This document shows, piece by piece, positions 3,001 to 38,627 of a stretch of 64,000 nt of DNA. The first letter of the stretch is position 1. Every line of letters starts with the position of its first letter. The notes under the pieces are model-generated. The model made no database searches, had not been told where the DNA came from, and worked only from the letters and a program-made list of their open reading frames with translations. The stretch lies in NCBI GenBank assembly GCA_015061545.1, contig SUWJ01000012.1, positions 1-64,000 of the forward strand. The letters are read 5' to 3'. The stretch comes from Lentisphaerota bacterium (GTDB lineage Bacteria > Verrucomicrobiota > Lentisphaeria > Victivallales > Victivallaceae). The position numbers and the translations under genes were made by a program.

Positions 3001-3491
3001 TTAGTATTATCCGCAGTCCCCCCATTGCGGATAGTAAGACTCCCTCCTTCATTGACTGTAGTGCTGTTTACATATCCAAAGCCATAAACACCGCTCCAGC
3101 CAGTGTATACATAGACACTGCCGTCTCGATTAACGGTCGTTTTGGTTGCTGAGCCGGTATCGACATTCATAACCCCGGAGCTGTTGATAATACTGTTGCT
3201 GACTTGGCCACTGATTCCTGCATTTAAGACTCCACCTTCATTGACTGTGGTACTGTTTGCCAGCCCGTCATATTTAACTGTCATTATCCCCGCAGAATTA
3301 ATAGTGGTTTTATTGGCATAGCCCCCGGAGACACAAACAGAGCCATTAATATAGCCTTGTTGATAATATCCGGAAGAATAGTAACTTCCGCTGATAAGTG
3401 TGTCAGTTGCCGATCCGCTGTGACCTACGCCTAAAAAACCATTGGCATTTACATTGGTATTACTGACAACCCCACCTTGAGATACTGACAA
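93..3491 (-). CDS. AIDA-repeat surface protein, C-terminal segment downstream of an in-frame TAG
   Basis: Almost the whole protein is short beta-solenoid units of the form (T)TVNxGGxMxISSGGxAx, about 19-20 residues each, as in AIDA-type autotransporter passengers. The middle (about residues 310-700) carries an 80-residue higher-order repeat, encoded by near-identical 240-bp units around 1561-2520. The apparent start is TTG directly after a TAG stop and has no ribosome site, so this is really the continuation of the reading frame at 3492-4079: the repeat register runs unbroken across the stop. The last complete repeat ends about position 130, then the protein stops after a non-repeat tail (GYCPKFCEKHL). 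No beta-barrel or anchor domain is present, so the 3' end also looks truncated. Likely role by family is a secreted or surface adhesin. It is probably not translated unless the amber codon is read through. Confidence 0.7.
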   Translation of the reverse strand: MSVSQGGVVSNTNVNANGFLGVGHSGSATDTLISGSYYSSGYYQQGYINGSVCVSGGYANKTTINSAGIMTVKYDGLANSTTVNEGGVLNAGISGQVSNSIINSSGVMNVDTGSATKTTVNRDGSVYVYTGWSGVYGFGYVNSTTVNEGGSLTIRNGGTADNTKLYGVMFIESDSYATCPSGGYANNTEISNGGCLTISSGGTADNTTVNYLGTLYVYSGTANSVTVFTDGYLSNSGGVVNNLVIAGGNASLASPGIINNAIITSNGRMYIYSGIVNNVSVSEYSFLEIEGSALDIVENGGYVEVYEGAHVTFAQNTISGADISGRITVHSNTTLLDANVNSYGSAYIFSGGVAENILVNERGTMFVSSGGTATQITENGGYVMTENGANVSFLENTLSGITVSNNMTVHSNTTLLDANINRYGKVYIFNGGIADNITANEGGEMYVSEGGTATQITENGGYVITENGANVSFLENTLSGITVSNNMTVHSKTQLLDANINSGSVRIFDSGVASNVSVNGNGKMYISSGGTATAVVENGGFVMLEDGANVSFVENTLSGINIGHSATVHSKTKLLDANVNYAGEVHIFDSGVASNISVNGNGKMYISSGGTATAVVENGGFVMLEDGANVSFVENTLSGFNIYGRDVTAHSNTTVINVAVNSGGKLHVFGSNNVKSLRVVSNGHVLLYDGASIESATLSGYRSSRYVNGEYIYETTFASMTINSGGIANNTIMSACAKITVSSGGIANNTIMIHHWYPSELHIVSGGVANSTTVTASMFISNGGIGNDTVVNSGIVYVYEGGTANSTTVNSSGNMHISSGGIANDTTMTGGSMVISEGGIASATTIAAGNMRISGGGSADSTIVSGGYMFISSGGVANEITISGGQMNISYGGVASGTTISNGYMVICSGGTASDIVEDGGSVQVVDGATVAFAEHTFSGITISGRTATVHSNTTALDVAVGSQGKLLVYDGGVASNTDLKGVRTYTYSIGSYHYSSHLASMMVSSGGSALGATLNEYAALTVLSGAIASNTTIKTSGSMYISQGAIVDGTVVDGGTLNISNGVTVDNTTVSNGNITICDGGIANNTTMSGGSMFISSGGVANDTTMSGGYMNISSGGVANGYCPKFCEKHL

Positions 3492-37027: not shown

Positions 37028-37060
37028 GTCGGTACTTGAGGAGGGGCAAGACCGATCTTT
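37028..37060 (+). terminator. Weak terminator after the isomerase/epimerase pair
   Basis: GTCGGT (37028-37033) pairs with ACCGAT (37051-37056, one G-U), followed by CTTTTATTTT. An overlapping alternative stem is GGGCAA/TTGCCC (37044-37049/37065-37070). Only one can form. Confidence 0.35.
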
Positions 37061-37530
37061 TATTTTGCCCACGGCGGACGGGGTATATTATTTTTATCGC
37101 TGATCGTACTGCTGCCGGCGGAACGGCCGCGGGCATCGCGGTAGATCACCCGATTGCCGGAAATTTGTGCCGAACCTGACAGTCTGCCCTGCGCATCGTA
37201 GTAGGTTATACGGTTGCCGTGGCGCTGTTCTCTGGAACTGAGTCTGCCCTGCGCATCGCGGTAGGTTGTGGTGTTGCCCGACTGCCGCGCAGTAGCTTTG
37301 AGTCTGCCCTGCGCATCGCGGTAGGTTGTGGTGTTGCCCGACTGCCGCGCAGTAGCTTTGAGTCTGCCCTGCGCATCGCGGTAAGTTGTGGTGTTGCCCG
37401 ACTGCCGCGCAGTGGAGCTGACTCTGCCTTGGGCATCGCGCTGAATGGTGTTGGAGCTTGACGGGGCGGCAAGCGCGACCGGCGCTGCTGCCAGAAGCAT
37501 TAGCAGAACAAAACTTGAAAATCGGTTCAT
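37060..37530 (-). CDS. Secreted protein with tandem 20-residue repeats
   Basis: 156 residues. Residues 1-22 are a Sec signal peptide (SFVLLMLLAAAPVALA, cleavage after ALA). The mature part is six units of about 20 residues built on SGNTTTYRDAQGRLKATARQ, reminiscent of YD/RHS-type repeats, ending with a short basic Pro tail. The DNA repeat is 60 bp, and two units (37261-37320 and 37321-37380) are identical. Function unknown, and a structural or wall-binding periplasmic/extracellular role is possible. A purine-rich ribosome site (AAGGGGGAA) precedes the ATG. It lies 31 nt after the MBL hydrolase gene and is probably co-transcribed. Confidence 0.75.
   Translation of the reverse strand: MNRFSSFVLLMLLAAAPVALAAPSSSNTIQRDAQGRVSSTARQSGNTTTYRDAQGRLKATARQSGNTTTYRDAQGRLKATARQSGNTTTYRDAQGRLSSREQRHGNRITYYDAQGRLSGSAQISGNRVIYRDARGRSAGSSTISDKNNIPRPPWAK
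37141..37440 (-). repeat. 60-bp in-frame tandem repeats (five full units)
   Basis: Five 60-bp units in exact phase. Units 37261-37320 and 37321-37380 are identical, 37381-37440 differs at a few bases, and the outer units have diverged more. A partial sixth unit continues to about 37470. Identical neighbours imply recent expansion and possible copy-number variation. Confidence 0.9.
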
Positions 37531-37561: not shown

Positions 37562-38170
37562 TCAACTCAGATACGGATTGGAAGTTTTTTCCAGTGCAAT
37601 AGTAGTGCGCGGGCCGTGCCCCGGATAAACCACGGTGTTATCGGGCAGCGTCAGCAGTTTTTGGCGGATACTTTTTTCCAGTTCGGCAAAGCTGCCGCCG
37701 GGCAGATCGGTCCGTCCGACCGACCCGGCAAAAAGCGTGTCGCCCGAAATCAGAATGTTGCGCTCAGGAAAATAAAAGCAGCTGCCGCCGGGAGAATGAC
37801 CCGGAGTATGGAGCAATTTTACGCTGCTGTAATTCCATTCGGCAGTAGTCGGCGGCAGTCCGTCCACCGGCGGCAGATAGGGCAGAATGTGGTTATCGGG
37901 ACTGTGGTAAAGTTCTTTATCGCCCGAATCCAGAAAAACGCTGACGGCGTTGAGGCGGGATTTCACTTCGGGAACCGCCCCGATGTGGTCAACGTGGGCA
38001 TGAGTCAACAGTATGGCGCATTGCTCAAACGGGTAGTCCGCCGCCGCCGAAATAATCAGATCCGCATCATCACCGGGGTCAATTATCAACAGCAGTTTTT
38101 CCTTTTCTTCGTAGACAAGATAACAGTTCACCGCCAGAGCGCCGACAGGAATGATACGGAAGTTTTCCAT
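37562..38170 (-). CDS. MBL-fold metallo-hydrolase (glyoxalase II-like)
   Basis: 202 residues. It has the metallo-beta-lactamase motif THAHVDHIG (about 54-62), then HTPGHSPGGSCFYFPE, SGDTLFAGSVGRTDLPGG and VYPGHGPRTTIALEK. This set is typical of the small YcbL/GloB-like hydrolases, which cleave thioesters such as lactoylglutathione or act as general hydrolases. The N-terminus (IIPVGALAVNCYLVYEE) matches the family start, so ATG 38170 was chosen. No signal peptide. Followed by the repeat protein gene. Confidence 0.88.
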   Translation of the reverse strand: MENFRIIPVGALAVNCYLVYEEKEKLLLIIDPGDDADLIISAAADYPFEQCAILLTHAHVDHIGAVPEVKSRLNAVSVFLDSGDKELYHSPDNHILPYLPPVDGLPPTTAEWNYSSVKLLHTPGHSPGGSCFYFPERNILISGDTLFAGSVGRTDLPGGSFAELEKSIRQKLLTLPDNTVVYPGHGPRTTIALEKTSNPYLS

Positions 38171-38366
38171 AACCGAAAATAGACCTTTCACGGTATTGTT
38201 TTGCTGAAAATTTTGCTCTTGCCTGCAGCGGAAATTCAACGCTGCAACCGGCTGAACCGAAGTCCGCGCCGTCCTGCCGCCGCAGAATCAGGGAAAAACT
38301 TTTGAGGAGAGTTTTTCCCTCTTCCCCAAACCCCATCTCCCTTTTCCCCTTGTCCGCCGTAGCCTT

Positions 38367-38423: not shown

Positions 38424-38495
38424 GCCCTGCAAGTTTAGAAAATATATATTGATATTATTTTTAATCTTGTTATCAACCCATGTTGGGAACAGCAC

Positions 38496-38591
38496 AAAAA
38501 AGAAAGCAGGTTTTATTCGTCTCAGCGGACTACTGACAATAAGGCCTCGCGGCCCCGATGCATAACTTGTTCCGAGATTGACCTGCTTTCT
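38496..38591 (-). ncRNA. Candidate structured small RNA with own promoter and terminator
   Basis: The predicted +1 (38591) is the first base of an 11-bp closing helix, AGAAAGCAGGT (38591-38581) with ACCTGCTTTCT (38511-38501), whose 3' arm runs into six T residues (counting the last base of the arm) as an intrinsic terminator. Inside, TCTCGGA pairs with TCC-GCT-GAGA (3-nt bulge), ACAA with TTGT, and GGGGCC with GGCCTT around a GCGA (GNRA) loop. The RNA would be about 97 nt. I checked for the SRP domain IV consensus, tRNA and tmRNA features and found none. It lies between the dispersed hairpins and the mraZ promoter, pointing away from mraZ. Class unknown. Confidence 0.6.
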
Positions 38592-38598
38592 GGAGTGT

Positions 38599-38627
38599 AA
38601 TATAAACGGCAATTTTTCATTATGCAA
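38599..38627 (-). promoter_or_regulatory. Promoter of the candidate small RNA
   Basis: TTGCAT, 17-bp spacer, TATATT on the minus strand, 7 nt before the first base of the RNA's closing helix. Its -10 equals that of most other promoters here. Confidence 0.65.

Follow-up and report, generated by a model that had tools for sequence, protein, structure and literature searches.

Most genomes of the class Lentisphaeria carry a conserved, previously unlisted RNA without an Rfam entry, recognised here by sequence comparison. We think it likely that this RNA of about 96 nt is a stand-alone housekeeping molecule, a miniature 6S-like mimic of the open promoter. Few regulatory RNAs are as nearly universal in bacteria as 6S RNA, and where it is missing the question arises of what takes its place. 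A candidate replacement for it can be named here for a whole class, the RNA suggests how small an RNA promoter mimic can be, and a gap in the annotation of most Lentisphaeria genomes could be filled in.

A free-standing small-RNA gene

The gene lies on the minus strand of the window (the whole 64,000-nt stretch of DNA that was analysed). A first-pass annotation had described here a promoter, TTGCAT-17-TATATT, with its +1 on the start of an 11-bp helix and with a T-run, all of which are found in the sequence. The elements of the gene are as follows:

38622–38627, minus strand: −35 box TTGCAT (sequence; the −35/−10 pair lies at a constant distance 5′ of the RNA in homologues)
38599–38604, minus strand: −10 box TATATT, 7 nt ahead of the predicted +1 at 38591
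38496–38591, minus strand: small RNA of about 96 nt, predicted transcript (fold, class-wide homologues, covariation)
38581–38591, minus strand: P1 5′ arm, closing and terminator helix, AGAAAGCAGGT (two-sided compensatory changes in all 11 pairs)
38501–38511, minus strand: P1 3′ arm, also the terminator stem, ACCTGCTTTCT (pairs with AGAAAGCAGGT; covariation)
38496–38500, minus strand: U-run finishing the intrinsic terminator (sequence; T-rich in homologues)

TTGCAT (38627–38622) and TATATT (38604–38599) are separated by a 17-nt spacer on the minus strand, and the predicted +1, A38591, is the first base of the 11-bp P1 helix. Folded alone, the 97-nt RNA reaches −33.5 kcal/mol (z = −3.1), a stability that none of 200 dinucleotide shuffles equals. 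The wider 137-nt stretch gives a weak signal in single-sequence folding (z = −1.9, with 10 of 200 shuffles as stable), and the single-sequence promoter scan is by itself not significant, one promoter being found and 1.4 expected in shuffles. The case therefore rests on comparison across genomes. A promoter that ends 4–10 nt 5′ of the RNA and matches at least 8 of 12 positions precedes 62% of the 82 class-wide copies, compared to 6.5% of shuffled upstream sequences, and in the copies of the family the boxes stand at an equal distance ahead of the RNA. By these comparisons the locus is a free-standing small-RNA gene that has its own promoter and terminator and a predicted transcript.

A single-axis fold supported by covariation

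The structure alignment comprises 82 distinct sequences fitted to a covariance model. MAFFT alignments put the variable 3′ arm wrongly, so model-fitted alignments were used. The core, for which a branched structure had been proposed, is instead a single axis with a large bubble, built from the following elements:

38572–38577, minus strand: P2 5′ arm UCUCGG (class consensus YCUCUG), putative downstream-duplex equivalent (covariation, consensus)
38557–38571, minus strand: 5′ bubble strand, 15 nt, putative template-strand equivalent (14–15 nt in 77 of 82 sequences)
38567–38570, minus strand: P3 5′ arm ACAA, its pairing with UUGU at 38536–38539 conserved in part (65% of cells paired)
38551–38556, minus strand: P4 5′ arm GGGGCC (98.8% of cells paired, compensatory changes)
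38547–38550, minus strand: GCGA (GNRA) loop, with UCUUUU-type loops instead in some genera
38541–38546, minus strand: P4 3′ arm GGCCUU, whose last U is paired and is the putative −12 equivalent
38526–38540, minus strand: 3′ bubble strand, 15 nt (median 15), putative non-template-strand equivalent (bubble geometry)
38536–38541, minus strand: −10-like hexamer UAUUGU (69 of 82 sequences have TANNNT, and the unpaired A38540 is the same in all 82)
38520–38525, minus strand: P2 3′ arm CUGAGA (covariation, consensus)

In the 82-row alignment, which leans to structure by its model fitting, 90.0% of the cells are paired, compared to 42–53% when the partners are slid by 1–3 columns. At 23 of the 27 base pairs both sides have changed with pairing kept, and two-sided compensatory cells number 406, as against 110 ± 9 in shuffles and 49–74 in the slid controls. 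Homologues with compensatory base changes, by which the first-pass annotation had set store, thus exist across the class alignment. Covariation places P1 and P4 beyond doubt, and P2, with 89% of its cells paired, is firm. The hairpin GGGGCC-GCGA-GGCCTT with its GNRA loop, also predicted earlier, was located at 38556–38541. The predicted ACAA/TTGT stem can indeed pair at this locus, but P3 was not treated as a generally conserved helix because only 65% of its cells pair.

Taken by themselves, the weak statistics of the single-sequence promoter and of the wider fold would allow a chance fold or a repeat element. This explanation can be dismissed, being refuted by the single copy, the class-wide homologues and the 406 compensatory cells set against their controls; despite the lean of the alignment, the slid controls together with the diversity among P1 sequences rule out chance.

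Aligned copies measure 89–134 nt and typically 92–100 nt. In two genera (L088:933–1066 and L087:2769–2871) the P4 hairpin is swapped for a far longer or different apical hairpin, which indicates that the size of the apical arm can vary while the TA..T fork is retained.

Distribution and exclusion of known families

The RNA is single-copy in its own genome (2.35 Mb), and a multicopy repeat element, against which the first-pass annotation had cautioned, was rejected on this count. Of 78 genomes in the family, 59 have the RNA by BLASTN. Covariance models, the E-values of which are rough, detected it in 106 of the 137 order genomes (model built from five close sequences) and in 163 of the 198 class genomes (65 sequences). 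A model built from 82 sequences matched 115 of 388 genomes of the phylum, all within the class, and none of the approximately 256 genomes of the other classes; the large searches used stricter filters, so that weakly scoring copies could have escaped on either side of this comparison. When 24 class genomes without a match were rescanned with laxer filters, two gave clear matches and three gave marginal ones. Most of the genomes compared are incomplete metagenome assemblies, and several fairly complete genomes of the class also have no detectable copy. A plasmid collection contained no match to the RNA.

There is usually one copy per genome. Some genomes carry extra diverged copies, in tandem or dispersed (L083:5001–5098 with L083:5180–5276; L105:2895–2991 with 3001–3096), which recall the 6S-1/6S-2 pairs of other bacteria, and one genome (G139) gave seven matches to the RNA model.

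A search of the locus against 4227 Rfam families gave no match, and the homologous loci matched no family at E ≤ 5, which bears out the earlier view that the RNA is unassigned. Together with the compensatory homologues and the single copy, this result supports the proposal of a complete gene for a structured RNA of about 97 nt in which promoter, +1, fold and terminator coincide. Small SRP RNA (RF00169) is alike in its similar length, its one hairpin-like axis and its GNRA-type loop; it had been set aside in the first-pass annotation, correctly, as it has a separate locus elsewhere in the same genome (G000:C27), was found in 20 of 21 genomes searched, and gives no match at the RNA locus. Canonical 6S RNA (RF00013) does not match the locus even at E ≤ 10, and was rejected as a family assignment since the gathering cut-off is not reached and the RNA is too short. 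The 6S-Flavo family (RF01685) was likewise rejected, as none of 21 relatives gave a match above its cut-off; in the RNA's own genome it produced only a weak match (E ≤ 5), on another contig than the RNA. Acido-Lenti-1 (RF01687), a predicted RNA recorded from Lentisphaerae (PMC2864571), does not match the locus even at E ≤ 10. In the literature that was searched, no publication on a Lentisphaerota RNA of this kind was found.

A promoter-like bubble with a −10-like element at the fork

The bubble between P2 and P4 has 14–15 nt on its 5′ side in 77 of 82 sequences and a median of 15 nt on its 3′ side, and so comes close in size to a promoter bubble, which spans 13–14 nt. At the point where the 3′ strand leaves P4 it reads U, then an invariant A, three variable bases and a U (92%); the first U is paired in 75 of 82 sequences, its partner being G or A. 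The invariant A at the P4 fork, found in 82 of 82 sequences, is the most conserved position of the RNA. In bacterial promoters, the −10 element is defined by T−12, A−11 and T−7, of which A−11 is the base flipped at the fork. TANNNT occupies the fork in 69 of the 82 sequences compared to a background of 2.6% per position, and does so independently of the ability of P3 to pair (34 of 42 and 35 of 40 sequences in the two groups). The opposite strand of the bubble carries a pyrimidine (C or U) in column 39 that is conserved in 74 of 82 sequences, at which a product RNA could start. The closing helix, large central bubble and apical helix of the open-promoter-like 6S architecture are all present, as P1 and P2, 15 + 15 nt and P4, respectively, and the long apical arm is absent.

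The bubble lends itself to two other readings. In a trans-acting antisense small RNA, the 5′ bubble strand (GAACAAU..UGCAUC) would be the seed that pairs with an mRNA and the strong P1 a stabilising terminator; a stand-alone gene with promoter and terminator agrees with this, as does the sequence conservation of the 5′ strand, compared to the variability of most of the 3′ strand. We regard this role as improbable. It is weakened by the lack of an Hfq (PF17209) match in 21 order-level genomes, the RNA's own included, and by the one-copy conservation of the RNA across the class, which is unusual for antisense RNAs. Furthermore, the base that varies least is found at the P4 fork on the 3′ strand, and a fixed bubble length is not expected of a seed. 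Alternatively, the bubble could be the binding site of another RNA-binding protein, such as a translational regulator, for which the RNA would act as scaffold or decoy. An internal loop that is conserved on both strands, flanked by helices and carried by a stand-alone, single-copy RNA would suit such a protein, but neither the distribution complementary to 6S RNA described below nor the TANNNT at the fork of a 15-nt bubble would be explained, and we hold this reading to be decidedly improbable.

Relation to 6S RNA

In the phylum sample RF00013 matched 147 of 289 genomes, in 100 of them above the cut-off, and among the matches listed all are outside Lentisphaeria. Within the class it exceeded the cut-off in none of 198 genomes, and the lone sub-threshold match (24.4 bits, E = 0.011) is without a proper closing stem. 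At this search sensitivity, the distributions of the two RNAs are thus complementary. The first-pass annotation had excluded 6S RNA on its features; this stands for the family assignment, given that RF00013 does not match, but both anatomy and distribution point to a 6S-like role. The RNA probably works like 6S, a statement that carries no claim of membership in RF00013.

6S RNA resembles an open promoter and is usually about 180 nt long, with about 160 nt one of the shortest lengths (PMC11077062). The RNA described here is similar to 6S RNA (RF00013, SsrS) in being stand-alone and near-universal in its lineage and in arranging a closing helix, a bubble and an apical helix on one axis. It differs in its length (96 versus about 180 nt), in its apical arm, which is cut to a 6-bp hairpin, and in the TANNNT at the fork, which the canonical 6S RNAs of the phylum do not have at the corresponding place. 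6S-Flavo RNA (RF01685) of Bacteroidetes, named as a lineage-specific form sharing the function of 6S (PMC2864571), is also short, with a 108-position model, but has a different sequence. Ms1 and CoRP RNA of actinobacteria and scr0792 (~85 nt) of Streptomyces, each specific to its lineage, associate with RNA polymerase in bacteria in which 6S is absent or unseen (PMC11077062). These belong to other lineages; Ms1 binds core enzyme that lacks sigma, in contrast to the sigma-dependent binding which the −10-like element found here predicts. A proposal that every species possesses one abundant RNA associated with its polymerase, which may escape bioinformatic searches (PMC11077062), matches the situation of the RNA in Lentisphaeria.

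The border of P2 and the bubble, YCUCUGA..C, resembles the RF00013 consensus cCcCuGAgCC and the sister-class 6S sequence UCUCUGACCC. Comparison of the class consensus with 50 sister-class 6S RNAs placed the best local matches at the corresponding border in many cases; matches with p ≤ 0.01 were obtained for six of these 50 related, and thus not independent, sequences, five of them at the border. A search of canonical 6S loci with model R3 of the RNA found only P1-like terminators, and a nucleotide profile of sister-class 6S found nothing above shuffles in the RNA set. The RNA has half the usual length of 6S, and a search with either profile misses the other RNA, so we do not count it as a member of the family; it may have descended from 6S by loss of the apical arm or may have arisen independently.

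A weak 24-bit 6S candidate of 125 nt from a sister class (L190:501–625) has its apical arm cut to GGGGC-GCAA-GCCCC, which is close to P4 of the RNA. Its relatives in the same family measure 155–157 nt, a difference that suggests progressive loss of the apical arm in the phylum.

A model for the action of the RNA

We infer that the RNA is transcribed, binds RNA polymerase, gives rise to a product RNA and has a regulatory effect, and propose the following model. P1 and P2 would stand for the downstream duplex of a promoter, the bubble of about 15 + 15 nt for the melted region and P4 for the upstream duplex. The 3′ bubble strand would offer a −10 element (the paired U at −12, the unpaired invariant A at −11 and the U at −7) to sigma region 2, and the RNA would dock in the holoenzyme of primary sigma and RNA polymerase, keeping the polymerase off promoters. 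Release would probably occur when a short product RNA, the start of which is predicted near G/AUUCNGAG, is made by the polymerase on the 5′ bubble strand as template.

Among the points against a 6S-like role are the length, 96 nt being far below the known lengths of 6S, the class genomes without a detectable copy, and the apical hairpin, which with its 6 bp would not extend as far as sigma region 4. Klocko and Wassarman are said to have reported in 2009 that 6S of E. coli requires sigma region 4.2. A possible but doubtful alternative is that the RNA is a lineage-specific promoter decoy which is not derived from 6S and has replaced it in Lentisphaeria, and which would read sigma mainly via the −10 element at the fork junction (U at −12 paired, A at −11 flipped, U at −7). 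It would then be a polymerase-binding RNA of independent origin and, at about 96 nt, among the smallest known.

Genomic neighbourhood

In the window, the RNA is flanked by a divergent mraZ gene (PF02381) upstream and by a gene for a metallo-beta-lactamase-fold protein (37562–38239) downstream. The location upstream of mraZ, which the first-pass annotation had put forward, does not extend to other genomes, where the RNA is unlinked to mraZ; its neighbours differ in identity and orientation between genera. As these genes are not conserved, the RNA is best described as a stand-alone, presumably trans-acting gene with mraZ incidental to it, and cis-regulation of either mraZ or the metallo-beta-lactamase gene was rejected. 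Control of the downstream gene in cis, by a leader or attenuator, would agree with the four genomes of the genus (the window and L091–L093) in which the same gene (cluster F0) follows the RNA on the same strand. The variation of the downstream genes between genera largely refutes it, however, and the RNA has its own terminator and no conserved alternative antiterminator, so that we find a leader very hard to credit.

Elsewhere on the minus strand of the window, positions 37060–37530 encode a secreted-looking 156-aa protein of GNTTTYRDAQGRL-type RHS/YD repeats (PF05593), unusually small for an RHS-repeat protein.
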